From NCBI GenBank assembly GCA_023132135.1, contig JAGLYR010000303.1, positions 1 to 9,830 on the forward strand: 9,830 nucleotides of DNA, given 5' to 3'. This DNA is from Candidatus Eiseniibacteriota bacterium. Lineage in GTDB: Bacteria > Arandabacterota > Arandabacteria > JAGLYR01. Shown here piece after piece: positions 1 to 9,830 of this stretch (the first letter of the stretch is position 1; every line of letters starts with the position of its first letter). The translations under genes were made by a program, and so were the position numbers. The notes beneath the pieces are model-generated. The model had not been told where the DNA came from. It saw only the letters and a list, made by a program, of their open reading frames with translations, and did no database searches.

Positions 1-2163
1 GATGCCCAGCGAACCCAGGAGCTGCCTCGGTGCCTGGGTGACATTCCGGGAGTCCAGGAGGATAAGGAGCCGACCGCCCCGGCTGACGTACGTTACGAGG
101 GCATCAATCTCGTCCTGGATGAAGGGACGCCACGGATCGGCGATGACCACAAGATCGCCCTTCGCGATGGCCTCCTCCAGCGTTGGCTCGAAGCTCGGGA
201 AGAACCCGACACGCTGTGTCCACACGAAGAACGTGTGGAGACTGATCTCGGGATTCCGGGTCAGGCCCCGGGTCGGGAGGGTTACCCGCGAGTGTTCGGC
301 CTCAAATGCCACGTGAACGTAATCCGTGTGGGGTTCGGGTGGGCCGTATGAGCGCCGCACGTGAGCGTCGTAGATAAGTGCCGCCAGGGCTACGCCCAGA
401 CACCCTGCCCCCAGAACGAGGGCGGCTCTCTGGGATCGCGACCATGACCGCATCGGGAGTGCGGCGGCGGCGAGGGCGGCGAGTCCCAGAAGGAACAGCA
501 GCTTGTCAACCCACGCCAGGCGGTTCACCCGATTCAGCCACTCCACAGTGCCCAGGGCCAGCTCCGGCTTACCCGGAATGAACATGAAGAAGTTGGAGAG
601 ACACGTGCTGTCCGTGTAGAAGGCCACCCTGCCCTTGCCATACTTGACGCCGCCCTGCTGCACGAACACACCGTAGCTGTAACTCCGGTTCTCCTTCTTG
701 GGGAAGAAGCTGTTCTGGGAATAGTCCAGCTCACTGGCCTTGACGGAATAGCCCAGAATCTGGTTCTCCGAGAGGAAGGGTGACGTCATGCTGCAGGAAG
801 TGGCGAAGAGATACGCGGGCATGTAGTTTTCCACGGGATGTGCGAAGATGGGCGGGCGCTCATAGACCGAGAGAGCCATGGTGGCCAGCTGGTAGGTGGA
901 ATCGTACCGGAAACGGCACCCGAACCGTTCCGCCAGCGCATTGAGGTACGTGCTGATGCCAAAAACGTTGGTGTGGTCCCCGTGAAGCCAGAGTCCGCCC
1001 CCCCGGCGCACGAATTCGACCAGCGCGTCGATCTCCTCCGGACCGTAGGACTCCGTCGGGGTTTTCAGCATCACGATGTCGTACTGGGAAAGGAGGTCCG
1101 GCAGAAGGGAATCGGCCCGGGAGTCGACATGGTAGAATTGGTTGAGATACTGAGCGAGGGAGTAGTAGTTGTAGCCGGACTTCCGACCGTACCAGTAGGT
1201 GTCGTACTCCTGGGTTGTCCATTCCCAGTCGGAATGGATCTCCTCGATCAGCAGACGTCCCGCCTTGGGCGTTCCAGCGTCATGATACGCGAAAAGTCCG
1301 ATGAAGCCGATTACCCCCAGCGTGACCAGAACCAGCGCGGTCAGCGTCCTCCCGCGTCCCGGCCACGCAATCCGCAGTGCAGCCCGCTCTGGAGAACGGT
1401 TGAGCACTTCCAAGCCCGCCAGCAACGCAGCCAGGGGCACGAAGCTCAGCGCTATGGGCTGGAATTGCCAAAGAATACCCGAGGTCTTGAACTTCACGAC
1501 CAGGAACATCATGAAGAGGTAGCGAAGCACTGAGTAACCCGCCAGCAGGGCGAGGAAGCCCAGAATGGTCCGTGCGGAGCGCCGCGCCAGAACAAGGAAC
1601 GTGATCCCGGCTACGGCGATCAGGCTCAGAGGAATGAAGCCCAACGATTCAAGACGCGTAGGGAAGGCAAACACGTCGTAGACGTAGGGAATGATAATGT
1701 CATTCTCGCTCAGCGACACCAGCGGGTTGAACAACCGGGCCAACCCGTAGAACAGGGGTGAGAGCCAGGGGATCTCGTGAACGCGGGAGGAGAAGATGTA
1801 GACGAAGGGGAACAGCGCCGCCTGGACCGCGAGAACCAGACCGGCCAGCCCCAGTGGAAGGCCCACCCAGGCCAGCGTCCGGGACAATCGCGCGGTGGAC
1901 AGAAGGACCACGGCCAGGATCAGGAGAACGGCCGGCAGCCGAAAGGGAAAGGGGAGATGGACAGCGGCCACAGCCAGGGGGACCAGGAGAAATGACCATC
2001 GCAGATCGAACTGCTCTACGACTGTCTTGCGGAGCCCCATACCGGCCGCCGCAATCCCGATCAGAACCAACCAGATCCAGTTCCCGCCCGGGGGCGTGAA
2101 GATGGGAACCGTGTTCAGCCAGAACAGCGTCAAGACAAGGGCGGTCAGCCAGAACCATCTCAT
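1..2163 (-). CDS. Large membrane protein with paired GATase-like (DUF4350-type) domains, 3' end off the window
   Basis: The frame read from the ATG at 2163 is open for 721 codons to the left edge with no stop, so the C-terminus is missing. Residues 1-295 hold about nine hydrophobic segments (for example 4-21, 57-70, 98-122, 174-193, 199-222, 233-252, 274-293). Residues 303-545 form a soluble alpha/beta region with LHGDHTNVFG (393-402) and YGKGRVAFYTDST (508-520). Two further membrane segments (about 553-570 and 580-597) lead into a second similar domain containing LVVIADPWRP (671-680) and SRGGRLLILLD (694-704). This plan matches the upstream gene, so the two are paralogues. The soluble domains resemble DUF4350/ThuA-like class-I glutamine amidotransferase folds, but I see no obvious catalytic Cys elbow. 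Substrate and pathway are unknown. The ATG overlaps the upstream stop by one base (TGATG), which suggests translational coupling. The gene is certain; the domain family is moderately certain. Confidence 0.85.
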   Translation of the reverse strand, partial: MRWFWLTALVLTLFWLNTVPIFTPPGGNWIWLVLIGIAAAGMGLRKTVVEQFDLRWSFLLVPLAVAAVHLPFPFRLPAVLLILAVVLLSTARLSRTLAWVGLPLGLAGLVLAVQAALFPFVYIFSSRVHEIPWLSPLFYGLARLFNPLVSLSENDIIIPYVYDVFAFPTRLESLGFIPLSLIAVAGITFLVLARRSARTILGFLALLAGYSVLRYLFMMFLVVKFKTSGILWQFQPIALSFVPLAALLAGLEVLNRSPERAALRIAWPGRGRTLTALVLVTLGVIGFIGLFAYHDAGTPKAGRLLIEEIHSDWEWTTQEYDTYWYGRKSGYNYYSLAQYLNQFYHVDSRADSLLPDLLSQYDIVMLKTPTESYGPEEIDALVEFVRRGGGLWLHGDHTNVFGISTYLNALAERFGCRFRYDSTYQLATMALSVYERPPIFAHPVENYMPAYLFATSCSMTSPFLSENQILGYSVKASELDYSQNSFFPKKENRSYSYGVFVQQGGVKYGKGRVAFYTDSTCLSNFFMFIPGKPELALGTVEWLNRVNRLAWVDKLLFLLGLAALAAAALPMRSWSRSQRAALVLGAGCLGVALAALIYDAHVRRSYGPPEPHTDYVHVAFEAEHSRVTLPTRGLTRNPEISLHTFFVWTQRVGFFPSFEPTLEEAIAKGDLVVIADPWRPFIQDEIDALVTYVSRGGRLLILLDSRNVTQAPRQLLGSLGI

Positions 2164-4532
2164 CACCGGAGCTCTCCCGCGTTCAGTCGCTCGAAGAATT
2201 CCTTCAGGAACATGATGTTTCCGACTTTCCATTCCTCGAGGGCCTCCAGATTGCTGTTCAGAAGGAACTGCGAGTCAGCGATGATCAATGCGCCACCCCC
2301 GGCCCCGCCTTCCGGCACGAAGGCCATGAAGGGGTCGGGGTGACCCGGGTGGTATCCGATCCCGACGGCATCGGCTCTGGAGAGTTTCAAAGGCCAGGCT
2401 TCCGAAACGTGGACGCTCTGGCCGTAGAGTGCGATATCGAAGTGAGCCAGAGGCACGTTCTGGATCGCGGCGCCGAACATGGCCAGCAAGGGCTCCGAAC
2501 GATCCCTCTCCTCGTAGCCTGTAGACAGAATGAGCACGCCCCCCGATTCAACGAAGGCCCGGACGGTTTCCAGTTCCTTCCCCCTGAAGGGTTTGGCGGG
2601 AGCAATCACGACCAGGAGTTCGCTGTCCATGACGAGGGATCCGGAGAACTTCCTCATCATCATGGAACAGTACCCGTTTCGTGCCAGGTTGAGCTCAAGG
2701 CCTCCGACGCAGTCGTCGTACCAGGTGAGCTGATCGAACCTCCCAACGTGGGACAGATCGATCACGGCTTTGCGCAGATCAATCCGCGGCACGGGCGGGG
2801 GTTCCGCCAGATGGCCTGTGACCATGGTTCCCAGGACAATGCCAAGACCAAGGACGGACCATGCATGCACCGACCGGGAGAGCGATCTGCGGGACAGCAG
2901 AATGAGAGCCACCGCGACTATGATGAGCAGTTCCCTGAATGGAAAACGGTTGTTGTCGGGAGGACTCGTCAGCCACTGAAACACCCGTTGCACGAAGGGC
3001 CACGCAGTTACCAGGGCCCCGTTCTGGAAGGGCGAGGTGTCTCCGAACACCAGTACTCTTCCTTTGCCGTAGCTGGCCTCGGCCACAAGACAGATGTCGC
3101 CCAACTGTTCCCCGGGGTTGTAGAGGCGGTCTCCAAGGTAGGACCGCTCCAGGTTCGCGGCGTCGCCCACGTCCGAGAAGCCGTATTTCCCAATGATGAC
3201 AGGCTTGGCCGGCGGAGCGAAACCGAGGGAAGCGCCCACCCAGATCTGGATGTCCTCGGAAACGATCACGTCCCGGTTGATGGGATGGGGGAGAAGCTCC
3301 AGTGCATCACGCCATCCCTGCGCCCAGAAGGTTCCGGAGTCGAATTCGAACCCGATGTTCACAGGTTTCAGTAGATCGTTGAAGGGCCCGCGGATGCCCT
3401 TGACTCCGGTGTGGTCTCCGAGGGCGAGAAGGGAGCCCCCGCGGGCTACGAAGTCCCAGATTACCGCTTTTTCCCGGGTATTGAAGAACTCCATCTGGTT
3501 GATCATCACAAGCACCCGGGCGTCGGCGAGGACTTCGGCGGTCAGGGCCTCGGGCCCCTTCACCACTTCAAATCCCTGGGCCTCGAGGAATCCGGGCAGC
3601 CGCCCAAACATGCCCCCGGAGCGTTCTCCGTACCGTCCGAAGACCGGGACATCCCAGTTGAGGTAGCCCTCATCCAGAATGACGACCTTTCCACCCCCGG
3701 ACCCCGGTTTCGGCATCAGCGTGAGACCGGCCGCCAGGACTACGCCGGCCAGGAGAGCCAGCGCGAGAGCCGCAGGCTGGAAGGCCATGGGTGATCCGAC
3801 AGCGCCGCCCGAGGTCCTGCGCCGGTACCAGGCGATGGGGCACAGAAGGGCAAGGAGGTGAATCGTCTGGGGGTTGAACAGGAGGAAATCCAGGCTGGGC
3901 GCCCACCGCTGGATTCCCACCGCGATGGGTGTCAGGAGCATCAGTACCAGCGCGTTGGTTGCAATGATGAACAGCAGGAAAACCCCGAAATCCCACGGCC
4001 GCCGGCCCTTTGCCCAAATGAGCCGGCTGAGTCCCCAACATGCCGCAAAGATTCCCATCCAGAATCCCGACATGGTGAAGCTCATGGCGTAGTTCTCGCC
4101 GATCATCTTTCCGACTGCGCCGGAAAAGCCGATGGCGGTGCGGCTCGTTAACCACCACAGGTGTGTCAGATGAAGATGGGCCAGGTGGAACACGAGAAAG
4201 AAGACAACCGCAGGGATCAGGAACACCAGATCCCGGTGCCCGGGGTCTTCCTCGTCCGTGGTAACCAGCAGAGCTGCAACCAGGGCGATGAAGGCCATCC
4301 CGCGCCAGAGCTCATGCCCCTGGCCCAGAACCGCCGCAAGAACGAGGAGCAGAATGCCCGCCAGCCACCGCGGGCGAGTCACCTTGGAGAGGGACCGAGG
4401 TCTCTCGATGATCACGAACACAGAAGCAAGGGTAAAGGAGGCCAGACGGTTGAGGGCCTCAGTGAGAAAACCCATCTCACCAAAAGAGAAAAGAAGGGCG
4501 GCTGAAAAGACCATGATTCCCATAAGCTGCAC
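2163..4532 (-). CDS. Large membrane protein with paired GATase-like (DUF4350-type) domains
   Basis: This 789-residue protein starts at GTG 4532. An AGGAG ribosome binding site lies 7 nt upstream (4540-4544) and an in-frame TGA precedes the start, so no earlier start is possible. ATGs at codons 4 and 7 are alternatives with poorer spacing. Residues 1-275 contain about eight or nine hydrophobic segments. Residues 282-523 form the first soluble domain, with VVILDEGY (283-290), LALGDHTGVKG (369-379) and YGKGRVLVFGDTS (488-500). A membrane hairpin follows at about 532-575. Residues 584-785 form a second domain with SELLVVIAP (637-645) and SGGVLILSTGYEE (663-675). The fold looks like DUF4350/ThuA-type GATase-like domains anchored in the membrane. 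I cannot name an enzyme activity, and no canonical GATase Cys elbow is evident. It is the first gene of a two-gene operon with its paralogue. Confidence 0.88.
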   Translation of the reverse strand: MQLMGIMVFSAALLFSFGEMGFLTEALNRLASFTLASVFVIIERPRSLSKVTRPRWLAGILLLVLAAVLGQGHELWRGMAFIALVAALLVTTDEEDPGHRDLVFLIPAVVFFLVFHLAHLHLTHLWWLTSRTAIGFSGAVGKMIGENYAMSFTMSGFWMGIFAACWGLSRLIWAKGRRPWDFGVFLLFIIATNALVLMLLTPIAVGIQRWAPSLDFLLFNPQTIHLLALLCPIAWYRRRTSGGAVGSPMAFQPAALALALLAGVVLAAGLTLMPKPGSGGGKVVILDEGYLNWDVPVFGRYGERSGGMFGRLPGFLEAQGFEVVKGPEALTAEVLADARVLVMINQMEFFNTREKAVIWDFVARGGSLLALGDHTGVKGIRGPFNDLLKPVNIGFEFDSGTFWAQGWRDALELLPHPINRDVIVSEDIQIWVGASLGFAPPAKPVIIGKYGFSDVGDAANLERSYLGDRLYNPGEQLGDICLVAEASYGKGRVLVFGDTSPFQNGALVTAWPFVQRVFQWLTSPPDNNRFPFRELLIIVAVALILLSRRSLSRSVHAWSVLGLGIVLGTMVTGHLAEPPPVPRIDLRKAVIDLSHVGRFDQLTWYDDCVGGLELNLARNGYCSMMMRKFSGSLVMDSELLVVIAPAKPFRGKELETVRAFVESGGVLILSTGYEERDRSEPLLAMFGAAIQNVPLAHFDIALYGQSVHVSEAWPLKLSRADAVGIGYHPGHPDPFMAFVPEGGAGGGALIIADSQFLLNSNLEALEEWKVGNIMFLKEFFERLNAGELR

Positions 4533-4539
4533 GGGCGGA

Positions 4540-4593
4540 CTCCTGCTTCAATGGATGCCGCTCCATTAAACCACCAGCCCGAATTCCCGTCAA
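4540..4593 (-). promoter_or_regulatory. Sigma70-type promoter and ribosome binding site of the two-gene membrane operon
   Basis: On the minus strand TTGACG (4588-4593) is followed by a 17-nt spacer and TTTAAT (4565-4570), each matching consensus at 5 of 6 positions. Transcription would begin near 4558, giving a leader of about 26 nt that contains AGGAG (4540-4544) before the GTG at 4532. Position, spacing and strand all agree. The start site itself is inferred. Confidence 0.7.
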
Positions 4594-4630: not shown

Positions 4631-4663
4631 GGCAAAGGCCCGCAGTGATTGCGGGCCTTTGCC
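4631..4663 (-). terminator. Hairpin terminator after the Cys-rich repeat gene
   Basis: Two perfect 14-base arms (4631-4644 and 4650-4663) flank a 5-base loop, with the AAAGGCCCGC...GCGGGCCTTT pattern usual for intrinsic terminators. It begins 37 nt past the stop codon at 4700 and lies before the next minus-strand promoter, so it separates the two transcription units. There is no long T tract beyond the stem-encoded one. Confidence 0.75.
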
Positions 4664-4699: not shown

Positions 4700-6106
4700 T
4701 TATTTGTTCCTGAACTCCTCCTTGACCTTACCCCACGTGGTGCGGTCGGAACCGCCGTCGCCCTGGATACCGGTCTGGCATCCGGGCCAACCCAGGCAGG
4801 TATTCTCGCAGGTGGGAACTCCATCGCAGGTTGGGGCGCCGTCGCACGTGGGCCAACCTGTGCAGGTCAAGTGACACGTCTGGCTTCCGTCACATGTGAA
4901 GTTGCCCTGGAACGTGAACGGGATGCAGTCCGGATCGTGCGCTACGCACGTCGGGGAGACCCCGTCGCACGTTGCCATCGGCTGATCGCATGTTGAGTTC
5001 CAGCATGTGTCGTGACCGTCGCAGGTGGCCTCGCCGTGACACGTGAATTGCGAGTCGCACGTGTAGAACCTGGAGCACGTCACCGTGGCGTCGCAGGTCA
5101 CCAGCCCCGGATCGCACGTGGCCATGCCCTCGTCGTAGGTCAGCTCCCAACATTCGGGACGGTCGCGGTCGCACGTGTCATACCCGTACATCGTGGGCTG
5201 CACGCAGTCCGGCCAGCCCGAGCAGGTTTCGTGACACGTCTGGCTTCCGTCACACGTGAAGTTGCCCTGCATGGTGTAGGGAATGCAGCTCGCGTCACAG
5301 GTGGGCGAGATGCCGTCGCACGTCATCTCGGGCTCGTCGCACGTTGAGTTCCAGCAGGTGTACTGACCGTTGCACGTGAGCTCTCCGTGGCACGTGTACT
5401 GCGAATCGCACGTGTAGAACCTGGAACAGGTTTCCGTGGCGTCGCAGGTCGCAATGCCCGGGTCGCATGTTGGGGTTCCCGCCTGGTAGGTCAAAGACCA
5501 GCAGTCGGGGTTGTCCCGGTCGCACGTAGGTGACGGATACATAGTGTCCACGCTGCCGCAGTTCGGCCAACCTTCGCAGGTCTCGTGGCAGGTGACCGTT
5601 CCGTCACACGTGAAGTTGCCCTGCATGGTGTAGGGGATGCACGTGCCGTCACACGTCGGCGAGACGCCGTCACACGTCATGTCGGGCTGGTCGCACGTTG
5701 AGTTCCAACATGTGAAACCCCCGTCACACGTGTACTCCCCGTGGCACGTGTACTGCGAGTCGCACGTGTAGAACCTGGAGCAGGTCTGCGTGGCGCCGCA
5801 CGTAGCCATTGACGATTCGCAGGTTACCTCGCCCTGGTAGGTGAGGTCCCAACATTCGGGAAGGTCGCGGTCGCAGGTGTACTCACCGTACATGGTCATC
5901 TGCTTCGGGCTCTCCGCGTGGGCTTCCGCCACGGTCGCCGCAGTGATCTGCTGCGGGGCCCCTTCCAGGCGGGCGATCGCCTCAGTGAGCAACGTCTGGA
6001 AGGCTGGGGAGCTTGCGTGGTGAACCGGTGAAGAGAGACCCGTCAGGTAGGTGACGCCGAAGACTGCAAGAGCTACAAAACATCCGATAACTATCGCCGT
6101 TCGCAT
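4700..6106 (-). CDS. Exported Cys-rich tandem-repeat protein (468 aa)
   Basis: I place the start at ATG 6106, where the purine-rich Shine-Dalgarno run sits 8 nt upstream. The in-frame GTG at 6115 touches that run and is unlikely. Residues 1-22 are a signal peptide or anchor (MRTAIVIGCFVALAVF). Residues 23-70 are a Cys-free linker. Residues 71-187, 188-304 and 305-421 are three repeats of about 117 residues. Each follows the order TMY, CDRD.P.CW.LTY, TCSRFYTCDSQ, TCHGE, TCWNSTC, TCDG.SPTC, CIP[YF]T.QGNFTCDG and GWP.C. An extra partial unit ends at LGWPGC, then a polar tail ends TTWGKVKEEFRNK. I count about 56 Cys, mostly as Thr-Cys spaced 5-8 residues apart. Such regular Cys ladders suggest a disulphide-stabilised beta-solenoid or a metal-binding scaffold outside the cytoplasm. 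I know no characterised family for it. VIGC at residues 6-9 resembles a lipobox but lies too close to the N-terminus to be trusted. Confidence 0.9.
   Translation of the reverse strand: MRTAIVIGCFVALAVFGVTYLTGLSSPVHHASSPAFQTLLTEAIARLEGAPQQITAATVAEAHAESPKQMTMYGEYTCDRDLPECWDLTYQGEVTCESSMATCGATQTCSRFYTCDSQYTCHGEYTCDGGFTCWNSTCDQPDMTCDGVSPTCDGTCIPYTMQGNFTCDGTVTCHETCEGWPNCGSVDTMYPSPTCDRDNPDCWSLTYQAGTPTCDPGIATCDATETCSRFYTCDSQYTCHGELTCNGQYTCWNSTCDEPEMTCDGISPTCDASCIPYTMQGNFTCDGSQTCHETCSGWPDCVQPTMYGYDTCDRDRPECWELTYDEGMATCDPGLVTCDATVTCSRFYTCDSQFTCHGEATCDGHDTCWNSTCDQPMATCDGVSPTCVAHDPDCIPFTFQGNFTCDGSQTCHLTCTGWPTCDGAPTCDGVPTCENTCLGWPGCQTGIQGDGGSDRTTWGKVKEEFRNK
4844..5896 (-). repeat. Three tandem 351-bp coding repeats
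   Basis: Units at 5546-5896, 5195-5545 and 4844-5194 encode the 117-residue repeats of the Cys-rich protein. The first two are exactly 351 bp. The third carries a small insertion (VAHDPDC in place of the shorter DASC), so its boundary is approximate. Long identical stretches survive between units at DNA level, for example around the SRFYTCDSQ and QGNFTCDG codons. This points to recent duplication or recombination between copies. Confidence 0.88.
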
Positions 6107-6145
6107 TGATCTCACCCCCCTTCAAGCGAACTGAGCTTTGGAGGT

Positions 6146-6174
6146 ATTATAGCAGATACGCAGAAGCAGATCAA
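6146..6174 (-). promoter_or_regulatory. Extended -10 promoter of the Cys-rich repeat gene
   Basis: On the minus strand TTGATC (6169-6174) is followed by a 17-nt spacer and a perfect TATAAT (6146-6151) preceded by TG at the extended -10 position. The leader to ATG 6106 is about 33 nt and holds a G-rich ribosome binding site. This is one of the best promoters in the window and implies strong expression. Confidence 0.78.
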
Positions 6175-7592: not shown

Positions 7593-9008
7593 ATGACAAC
7601 CAAACAAGACGCGACCTTGAGCGAGCATGAGGTCCGACTCTTTCCGTCTGTGCACATCACGAGCGACCGAGAGGCCGAACTCAGGGCGACAGCGTCGCTC
7701 CTCGCGGTGATTCGCGCAGTGTCCGAGTTCGGCAGGACAATTGTTCGCCTTGCCGGTGGTCCGGCTGGCCGACTCTCCTGCTTCACCGAAGTGCCCTGTC
7801 AATTGGAGCCTGGCGGCGGAGGTCCTCCTGAGGAATTGCGCCCTGATGGGCTTGTTCAGGTAGTGCGCGGGAAGACACGCTGGGTTGCCTTGGTCGAAGT
7901 CAAGGTCGGCAGGGCAAACCTCGATCCCGAGCAGATCGATAAGTATCACCGGCTGGCTCGGCAAGAAGGTGCGGGTGCCTTGATCACTGTGAGCAATCAG
8001 CCGGCACTTCCGGATGGTCGTCCTCCAGTTAGTCTCGATGGACGAAGGCTGCGCAGCATACCCGTAGTGCACTTCTCATGGGAGCGCCTCCTCAGCGAGG
8101 CGCAGCTTTTAAGCCGCAAGAAGGAGGTATCGGATTCAGATCAAAAATGGATGCTCGACGAATGGATCCGCTACGTTGATGATCCGGAGTCACGCATTGT
8201 CGTGCCGCCGGACCTCGGGTCGCAGTGGACCGAGATTCTCAAAGCTGCCAGAACAGGTGCGCTTGACCAGTCGGGTAGCGAACTCCTGGATGTGGCTAGG
8301 TTCTGGATGGGCTACCTCCGAAAGGCCGCGCTGCGGCTTCGGGCGAAACTCGGTGTAGAGGTGGAGATACGGTTGTCCAGAAAAGAGAAAAGGGACAGTC
8401 AGCTTCATCTCGAACGCCTCATCGCAAACGCTCGCGCCAACGGAGCTCTGTCTGGCGTGCTCCGTATTCCAGGCGCCGCCGGAGACATCCAGATTGACTT
8501 GTTTTTGCACAGCCGCTCCGTTCGGTATGGTCTGGAGGTCGCCGCACCAACAGAGGGAAGGCAGGCGACTCGTGTCAAGTGGCTATCACGACAGCTGCGC
8601 CGTCTCGACCTTCCAAGCGATCTCGTCGTGATCGCTGAGTGGACCGCACGCGGTTTGCTCACGTCGGCGCCTGCGACCCAATTCGTGGCCGACCCGCCCA
8701 TGCTGCTAGTCGACCGAAACGGTGCTGCACTTCCGAAGGATGTCAATCCAAAGCGTTTCCAGGTTCAATGGACTACCAATCTCCTGGTGGGCCGCGGACG
8801 TTCAAGTGCACCCGTCCTGGAGGGAATCTCCAAGGGGCTTGAGGACTTCTACCTCCGCGTAGTGGAGGGGCTCGTTCCCTTCGTTCCGCGTGCACCACGA
8901 CTGGTTACGAAGGATGTCCAGCCGGAAGATGGTGGCAGTACTCCTCACGAAGGCGGTGGTGAGTCAATCCCAGGCGATCCAACCACAGTAGCTAACAAGC
9001 CGATGTAA
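7593..9008 (+). CDS. Cassette 3: PD-(D/E)XK nuclease-superfamily protein (471 aa)
   Basis: The start is ATG 7593, preceded by a purine-rich GGGAAGAG and placed 43 nt inside the cassette. The N-terminal half carries a nuclease signature: helix LLAVIRAVSEFGR (36-48), E66 in FTEVP, D85 in RPDG, E102 and K104 in VEVKVG, and Q114 in the following helix (PEQIDKY). This D-x16-ExK plus Q arrangement is typical of the PD-(D/E)XK fold, and all catalytic positions are intact. HFSWERLLSEA (160-170) follows. Residues 210-430 are a second, charged domain I do not recognise, and the tail from 440 is low-complexity. Related bacterial proteins with RPDG...ALVEVK are known to me only as uncharacterised nuclease-like or stress-associated proteins. 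A DNA-cleaving defence role is plausible but unproven. The stop lies inside attC 3. Confidence 0.85.
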   Translation: MTTKQDATLSEHEVRLFPSVHITSDREAELRATASLLAVIRAVSEFGRTIVRLAGGPAGRLSCFTEVPCQLEPGGGGPPEELRPDGLVQVVRGKTRWVALVEVKVGRANLDPEQIDKYHRLARQEGAGALITVSNQPALPDGRPPVSLDGRRLRSIPVVHFSWERLLSEAQLLSRKKEVSDSDQKWMLDEWIRYVDDPESRIVVPPDLGSQWTEILKAARTGALDQSGSELLDVARFWMGYLRKAALRLRAKLGVEVEIRLSRKEKRDSQLHLERLIANARANGALSGVLRIPGAAGDIQIDLFLHSRSVRYGLEVAAPTEGRQATRVKWLSRQLRRLDLPSDLVVIAEWTARGLLTSAPATQFVADPPMLLVDRNGAALPKDVNPKRFQVQWTTNLLVGRGRSSAPVLEGISKGLEDFYLRVVEGLVPFVPRAPRLVTKDVQPEDGGSTPHEGGGESIPGDPTTVANKPM

Positions 9009-9052
9009 CCGGACTGCCCTTCGGCTGGCCGTTGATCGGCAGCGCGTTAGGC
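8990..9052 (+). other. attC site 3 (63 bp)
   Basis: R'' AGCTAAC (8990-8996), 5-nt spacer, L'' GATGTAA (9002-9008), L' TTGATC (9032-9037), R' GTTAGGC (9046-9052). L'' pairs with L' with one extrahelical G (9005) and one G-T wobble. GCC/GGC next to the L boxes extends the stem, which explains the longer 8-nt L'-R' spacer. The TAA stop of the cassette 3 gene sits in L''. Confidence 0.85.
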
Positions 9053-9074
9053 GACACAAACTGAAAGGAGGGGA

Positions 9075-9209
9075 ATCCGCCCGGATCAGAGTCGCATCCG
9101 TGTGGATCGTATCCCCGGCCACAAGACCTGCCTTGATACGTGCCTCGATGATCTTCTCGAAGATCCGCCGAAATCGATCCTCGCCCCAACGCTGGCTCGT
9201 TACCGGCAA
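9075..9209 (-). pseudogene. Transposase remnant, DDE type (IS1182/IS5-like)
   Basis: About 45 residues match the middle of DDE transposases: QRWGEDRFRRIFEKI, IKAGLV and then HTDATLIRAD, where the Asp of TDATLI would be the first catalytic residue. The match stops abruptly after that Asp, and the frame then runs into the attC. Upstream of TSQRWG the similarity also ends, close to CTGTTGAAAAAG (9222-9233 read on the minus strand), a motif often seen near ends of such elements. Both flanks of the transposase gene are therefore missing and it cannot be active. The family assignment is approximate. Confidence 0.65.
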
Positions 9210-9558: not shown

Positions 9559-9830
9559 ATGAAGCCTGAGCTTTTCCTCACCACCCACCGCGTGTTCACG
9601 CGAGCGGAGCTGCAGGCCGCCCTGCAGGGGCGGGCTAGGGCCACCGTGGATTCGTACCTCTCTCGCTGGCGTCATCAGGGGCGGATCGCACGGGTCAAGC
9701 GGGGTGTCTTCGTGCGCCTGGACGGGCAGGGAAGGGGCAACGGTTCGCTGCCGGACTTCGTGACCCTCGCTTCACGCATGGCCCCCGACGCGGCGGCCGC
9801 CTACCACACGGCGCTCGAGGTCCACGGCTG
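9559..9830 (+). CDS. AbiEi-family type IV antitoxin / transcriptional regulator, 5' part only
   Basis: ATG 9559 follows GGAGGT (9545-9550) at 8 nt, and the frame is open for 90 codons to the right edge. Residues 12-55 are a winged helix-turn-helix: VFTRAEL, then TVDSYLSRWRHQGRIARVKRGVFV ending in the wing. Residues 64-90 (PDFVTLASRMAPD, then AYHTALEVHG) match the start of the C-terminal antitoxin domain of AbiEi-like proteins. In AbiE systems AbiEi represses its operon and counteracts the nucleotidyltransferase toxin AbiEii encoded just downstream; that gene would lie outside the window. Some relatives are solitary regulators, so a complete toxin-antitoxin pair is not shown. Confidence 0.8.
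   Translation, partial: MKPELFLTTHRVFTRAELQAALQGRARATVDSYLSRWRHQGRIARVKRGVFVRLDGQGRGNGSLPDFVTLASRMAPDAAAAYHTALEVHG

Follow-up and report, generated by a model that had tools for sequence, protein, structure and literature searches.

A cysteine-repeat exported protein with GIFT-domain membrane partners and a short C-terminal tail found only in SprA-encoding genomes of the searched set

The contig JAGLYR010000303.1 of Candidatus Eiseniibacteriota, of which a stretch of 9,830 nucleotides was analysed (referred to as the window), encodes on its reverse strand a protein in which cysteines recur at regular intervals, raising the question of what such a protein is, how it might leave the cell and which partners it has. 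The gene spans 4700..6106 (468 aa from the ATG at 6106), and an in-frame GTG at 6115 would yield an alternative ORF of 471 aa (4700-6115). Its product starts with a hydrophobic helix (residues 2-22, 6041..6103), either a signal peptide or a signal anchor, bearing the MR[KT]xI motif conserved in the family, and the start was also signal-like by a simple hydrophobicity rule, as for a Sec-type N-terminus. A SPAFxxLLxEAIARLEG helix motif (residues 33-49, 5960..6010) comes next, then three repeat blocks of 117 aa with 17 Cys each (5546..5896, 5195..5545 and 4844..5194), a half unit DGAPTCDGVPTCENTCLGWPGC with 4 Cys (4778..4843), and finally a Cys-free tail region, RTTWGKVKEEFRNK (4703..4744), all on the reverse strand. 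In total 56 Cys were counted, and 55 of these come after the hydrophobic N-terminal segment; most are directly preceded by Thr and spaced by 5-7 residues with runs of 6 (overall range 4-12), and the repeats are very acidic and Asp-rich. At the DNA level, TRF reported a 354-bp period in 2.7 copies (score 1032). An earlier note, made from the sequence, had described an exported Cys-rich protein of three repeats with Thr-Cys periodicity, which is confirmed. Its block length of 117 was exact as well, and its wording of "near-identical" blocks proved too strong, the three being 74-75% identical in protein sequence.

The earlier note named lack of translation as one of two cases that would overturn its view, the other being a match to a characterised Cys-rich family. 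Comparison of the orthologues in two genomes of the same class (G001 and G004) gave dN 0.017 and dS 0.109 (dN/dS of ~0.15), and comparison of block 1 with block 2 gave dN 0.18 and dS 0.86. Because purifying selection thus acts both between orthologues and between blocks, the reading frame is real, and an untranslated frame could be ruled out; the frame is kept in two paralogues in the same genome and in four orthologues. Its composition is rare, since at least 12 Cys together with at least 8% Cys occurred in just 3 of 1158 frames of at least 100 aa in a six-frame reading of unrelated loci. Sequence searches of Pfam, NCBIfam, PADLOC and the PDB returned no match for the protein, supporting the view that it stands outside characterised families. 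A role as defence gene was considered and rejected; PADLOC was negative for the Cys gene and for the two genes downstream of it. Elsewhere in the window, the region 9559-9828 (forward strand) encodes the N-terminal part of an AbiEi-type antitoxin/regulator that runs off the end (PADLOC E 4e-20), a 471-aa ORF at 7593-9008 (forward strand) matches the VRR_NUC nuclease family weakly, with a score below cut-off (E 0.012), and has no PADLOC match, and a transposase-like fragment IHTDATLIRADSPPF was noted by eye from the ORF list at 8964-9209 (reverse strand).

The class was represented by eight genomes, including the source genome (G000). The latter carries two paralogues, one of 320 aa with two blocks (G000:C249:9251-10213) and one of 398 aa with two blocks plus TTDPADPAC units (G000:C39:12072-13268), while four other class genomes carry one-block orthologues of 186-205 aa (205 aa in G001). 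Block number, which the earlier note had proposed to survey, varies across the alignment of the relatives, and the parts that stay constant are the N-terminal MRKxI, the ensuing SPAFxxLLxEAIARLEGxxQ and a C-terminal RTTWGxxKxxF. A contig search with the family alignment recovered the four class orthologues only, and with the single protein none. The 398-aa paralogue (L013:12072-13268) lies downstream of genes that by eye resemble type IV pilus assembly and response regulator genes, with no GIFT pair adjoining.

Upstream of the Cys gene we found a sigma70-type promoter-like site with an extended TG (TTGATC-17-TATAAT, 6146..6174, reverse strand, 10/12 consensus match), separated from the ATG by a GGGGGG-TGA stretch. 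Downstream, a perfect hairpin without a free U tract (4631..4663, reverse strand), a candidate terminator or attenuator, separates the Cys gene from the gene that follows, before which a second promoter-like site (TTGACG-17-TTTAAT, 4565..4593, reverse strand) was seen by eye, outside the tool's list. Comparable hairpins occupy the same place in G001, G003 and G004, and hence in all four syntenic genomes. The earlier note's strong promoter and terminator of the gene's own therefore have their counterparts in the promoter-like site and the hairpin, whereas the isolation that this implied did not hold: downstream, beyond the hairpin, lies a conserved partner gene, which makes the Cys gene part of a module. 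As the hairpin separates the two genes in all four genomes, the Cys-repeat product may be made in excess of its partners.

These partners are two membrane proteins encoded on the same strand. GIFT gene A (2163..4532, 789 aa) carries two domains of the GIFT/DUF4350/GldG type, and GIFT gene B (1..2232), cut by the window end and with an orthologue of 900 aa, is of the same type; each protein has two DUF4350, ABC_transp_aux or GIFT matches located between membrane segments. In G000, G001, G003 and G004 gene A follows the Cys gene on the same strand at a distance of 127-250 bp (in G003 the second GIFT gene is on another contig, whose end fits), and first-type pair and Cys gene also co-occur in G007, where they occupy separate contigs and what looks like a transposase remnant fills the expected Cys-gene position. 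Two pair loci had no adjoining Cys gene, namely G007:C358, with that remnant upstream, and G275:C219, and in G164:C15 and G007:C389 the contig ends are too near to judge. Neighbouring genes were read as ORF lists, some of them checked against family libraries, and for the loci seen these partly annotated lists contained no recognisable ABC ATPase or GldF-type permease beside the GIFT genes.

A second, paralogous GIFT pair in G001, G002, G003, G004 and G005 is preceded by small exported proteins with CxGSx pentapeptide Cys repeats (L166:2385-2690, L167:2262-2732, L115:9126-9629, L197:1187-1678 and L180:2-277; the G001 copy has an in-frame stop), in several loci with small membrane proteins between the CxGSx gene and the pair. 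One of these partners gave a weak Keratin_B2_2 score (E 0.54). Outside the phylum, the gene A profile found GIFT pairs in only a few genomes, among them G143, G058, G203 and G275, which share only the domain Bacteria with the source genome. The Cys-repeat partner beside the pair in G143 (752 aa, 92 Cys, TC hexads) is closest in style to the window protein, that of G058 has TDPxxC repeats and 24 Cys beyond the signal, and that of G203, a genome of the same family as G058, is an exported protein of 1589 aa and 141 Cys in TNPxxDPxC decapeptides with a period of 10 (L216:10541-15310 on G203:C22), lying beside a divergent pair. A frame-broken copy of such a partner was found on G275:C182.

Among all these module partners the Cys period varies from 5 to 10, and N-terminal motif and gene context are kept. 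Specifically, [ST]P[AL][FY] directly behind the signal segment was present in 13/13 intact partners examined, the very proteins from which the motif was derived, versus 0/46 other exported proteins; the SPAFxxLLxEAIARLEG helix of the window protein is likewise common to Cys-repeat partners of other lineages. With the repeat period differing among partners, the conserved parts are the N-terminal motif and the GIFT pair. Our best guess is that the pair would act on the Cys-repeat cargo, by handling, anchoring or modifying it, and would read its constant N-terminal helix. GIFT domains have been proposed to bind sugars and to connect GldG, IFT52 and an oligosaccharyltransferase subunit (Beatson and Ponting 2004, as cited in PMC7226087). 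The succession of a constant N-terminal segment and Cys-rich repeats that vary also resembles the leader and core of a ribosomally made modified peptide (RiPP), of which the Cys-repeat protein would be the precursor and in whose export the pair would act. However, the putative cores reach up to 1589 aa, two partners carry C-terminal secretion domains (see below), and the partly annotated ORF lists of the neighbourhood contained no gene recognisable as radical SAM, LanM, YcaO or protease, so that we judged a RiPP precursor very unlikely.

Structure prediction, another check proposed in the earlier note, yielded no usable fold for the Cys region, either as one block or within the whole protein (AlphaFold pLDDT ~30). 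At the N-terminus the model has helices at residues 2-22 and 34-48, with a pLDDT of 82-85 in the first 20 residues. The earlier note had likened the Thr-Cys ladder to the disulphide-braced solenoids of some insect antifreeze proteins, while remarking that period and sequence differ, and Thr-Cys runs every 6 residues would fit a rigid beta-solenoid that binds ice or another lattice. Insect beta-solenoid antifreeze proteins have a uniform 12-residue coil with a TCT face. Against this, each block of the window protein contains phase breaks of 4, 5, 7, 11 and 12, homologous modules use other periods, and neither a confident fold nor a uniform 12-residue coil nor a PDB match was obtained; the antifreeze solenoid was rejected and we give it next to no credence.

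The chemistry of the cysteines is a separate matter. We expect them to form disulphides outside the cell; alternatively, they might bind metal or store thiols in the manner of a metallothionein, with no disulphides, in an anoxic periplasm or at an anoxic surface. The very acidic character of the repeats would suit metal or thiol storage, as would the failure to find VKOR in any of the 8 class genomes and the odd number of exported Cys (55 in the window protein and 43 in one paralogue). The count of 55 means that not all Cys can be paired within one chain, leaving at least one for another partner or for metal. However, the window protein lacks the CxxC and CxC spacings of metal sites, its cysteines being 4-12 and mostly 6 apart, and Cys spacing differs among the partners, which makes metal binding or thiol storage rather improbable in our view and disulphides the preferred expectation.

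A further constant element, at the other end of the protein, had escaped the earlier note, which also missed the two GIFT-domain proteins and the connection with type IX secretion (T9SS) described below. The tail of the window protein, in which TTWG starts 12-13 residues before the stop, belongs to a TTWGxIKxLYR set and fits the pattern [ST][ST]WGx[IVL]Kxx[YF]; a canonical tail protein ends in PSATEPTTWGGIKQLYR. In DNA of the class genomes, the pattern T[ST]WGxxxK gave 8-19 matches per genome versus 0-4 for the reversed control, and in nearly all matching ORFs the motif lay 10-12 residues from the stop. A stricter pattern was present in 18/193 genomes, its reversed control in none of the 193, and matches outside the class were again mostly C-terminal. 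By the simple hydrophobicity rule, 48/50 complete tail ORFs had a signal-peptide-like start versus 91/249 control ORFs, and the bodies of the 50 form 21 unrelated clusters. Within the tail, W, G, K and Y/F are fixed, a fixity partly set by the search expression, and a looser P-S-A-T-E-P runs ahead of them. One tail-bearing family, with AKVAVHV near the N-terminus and GxxGDDPC near the end, recurs in the class genomes, often in tandem (L145:804-2690, L129:896-2560, L154 and L143). Among the proteins tested, the tail was covered by no NCBIfam or Pfam model and matched no T9SS model. Sorting tails of the LPXTG, PEP-CTERM or GlyGly-CTERM kind, which combine a motif with a C-terminal transmembrane segment and a basic end, had no NCBIfam match in the window protein, whose C-terminus has no hydrophobic segment. 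In literature searches neither the tail nor T9SS in Eisenbacteria nor a Cys-repeat T9SS cargo was found to have been described.

The genomes that carry this tail have one secretion component in common, SprA, which is the translocon of T9SS. SprA_N (PF14349) was found in 58/193 genomes (the match in G046 being below the Pfam cut-off), including all 18 tail genomes, and in 8/8 class genomes versus 0/14 control genomes. In the source genome the domain lies on G000:C275 (E 3e-20), where a SprA homologue of 1968 aa (L245:3508-9414) is followed by genes that by eye resemble rimP and nusA. The tail was absent from 135/135 SprA-negative genomes, and the probability of such co-occurrence by chance was 5e-11, or 1e-6 with the source's own class left out; since SprA and tail are both traits of related lineages, the co-occurrence is partly a matter of ancestry. 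The main argument for a functional link comes from the C-terminal slot itself. In the Cys-repeat partners of G143 and G058, a T9SS type A domain (TIGR04183, scoring above NCBIfam's curated cut-off) stands in this slot in place of the TTWG tail, suggesting that the tail may do similar work. Another protein of the class genome G007 also has TIGR04183 above cut-off. The CxGSx-type partners and the G203 partner have neither tail nor T9SS domain, and the window protein itself had no match to TIGR04183, TIGR04131 or PF18962 in NCBIfam and Pfam.

Alternatively, the tail could be a sorting or anchoring signal unrelated to T9SS, recognised for example by a processing enzyme or outer-membrane receptor of another kind, with SprA co-occurring through lineage kinship only. 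Such a signal would accord with the 40 SprA genomes that lack the tail, and with a tail so short, devoid of any T9SS motif and covered by no model. The T9SS C-terminal domains described in PMC11969387 comprise 40-82 residues, the shortest signals being 40-55, and the TTWG tail is far shorter at ~11-14. Nevertheless, for one cargo of P. gingivalis the final 22 residues were enough to export GFP (PMC11969387), which makes a very short T9SS signal conceivable. Both the restriction of the tail to SprA genomes in the searched set and the T9SS domain that takes its slot in two partners speak against a signal unrelated to T9SS, which we consider possible and on balance doubtful.

Taken together, we favour the reading, with a probability of roughly 0.55, that the window protein is rich in disulphides, reaches the cell surface by a T9SS-like route and has the GIFT pair as its partners. 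The tandem Thr-Cys-repeat protein would leave the cytoplasm via its N-terminal hydrophobic signal, and its TTWGxxKxxF tail would serve in sorting, most likely by directing the protein to a SprA-based type IX-like route through the outer membrane. Once outside, the repeats would be braced or cross-linked by disulphides between their many cysteines and so build a coat or fibre. The GIFT-domain proteins would be devoted to a cargo whose Cys repeats vary; they would recognise its constant N-terminal motif and assist in its maturation, anchoring or transfer. More tentatively, the same observations might reflect an undescribed surface-display system of several lineages, in which the GIFT pair serves interchangeable Cys-repeat cargoes via the constant N-terminal helix, and the TTWGxIKxLYR tail, which numerous exported proteins of unrelated families bear, is a minimal and new type IX-like signal. 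If this is true, type IX-like secretion would reach beyond Bacteroidota into uncultured lineages, where it would use a signal of ~12 residues that escapes current models. In that case a large number of secreted proteins in each genome could be recognised at once by their tail, and orphan GIFT/DUF4350 membrane pairs would gain a testable function as partners of highly cysteine-repetitive surface proteins.

Several known systems resemble parts of this module. The beetle antifreeze protein TmAFP likewise repeats Thr and Cys at multiples of six, and the window protein differs from it in its phase breaks, its size, its N- and C-terminal modules and its bacterial gene context. Chlamydial Cys-rich outer membrane proteins and keratin-associated proteins are Cys-rich cross-linked coat proteins, and regularly spaced Cys in an extracellular structural protein would be the point of likeness; they have no apparent homology to the window protein, whose Thr-Cys hexads and module context are new. 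With the GldG, ABC_transp_aux, DUF4350 and GIFT-domain proteins, both window neighbours share their two domains between membrane segments, and they differ from GldG-type proteins in being large, paired and encoded next to a Cys-repeat gene. Finally, T9SS cargo as defined by TIGR04183 or PF18962 ends in a beta-sandwich domain that bears GxY and final Lys motifs, whereas the window protein ends in ~12 residues with the pattern W-G-x-[IV]-K; common to both are a Sec-type N-terminus, a C-terminal element, with a sorting role presumed for the tail, and SprA in the genome, and the G143 and G058 partners join the two by carrying the T9SS domain on Cys-repeat proteins of the same module.
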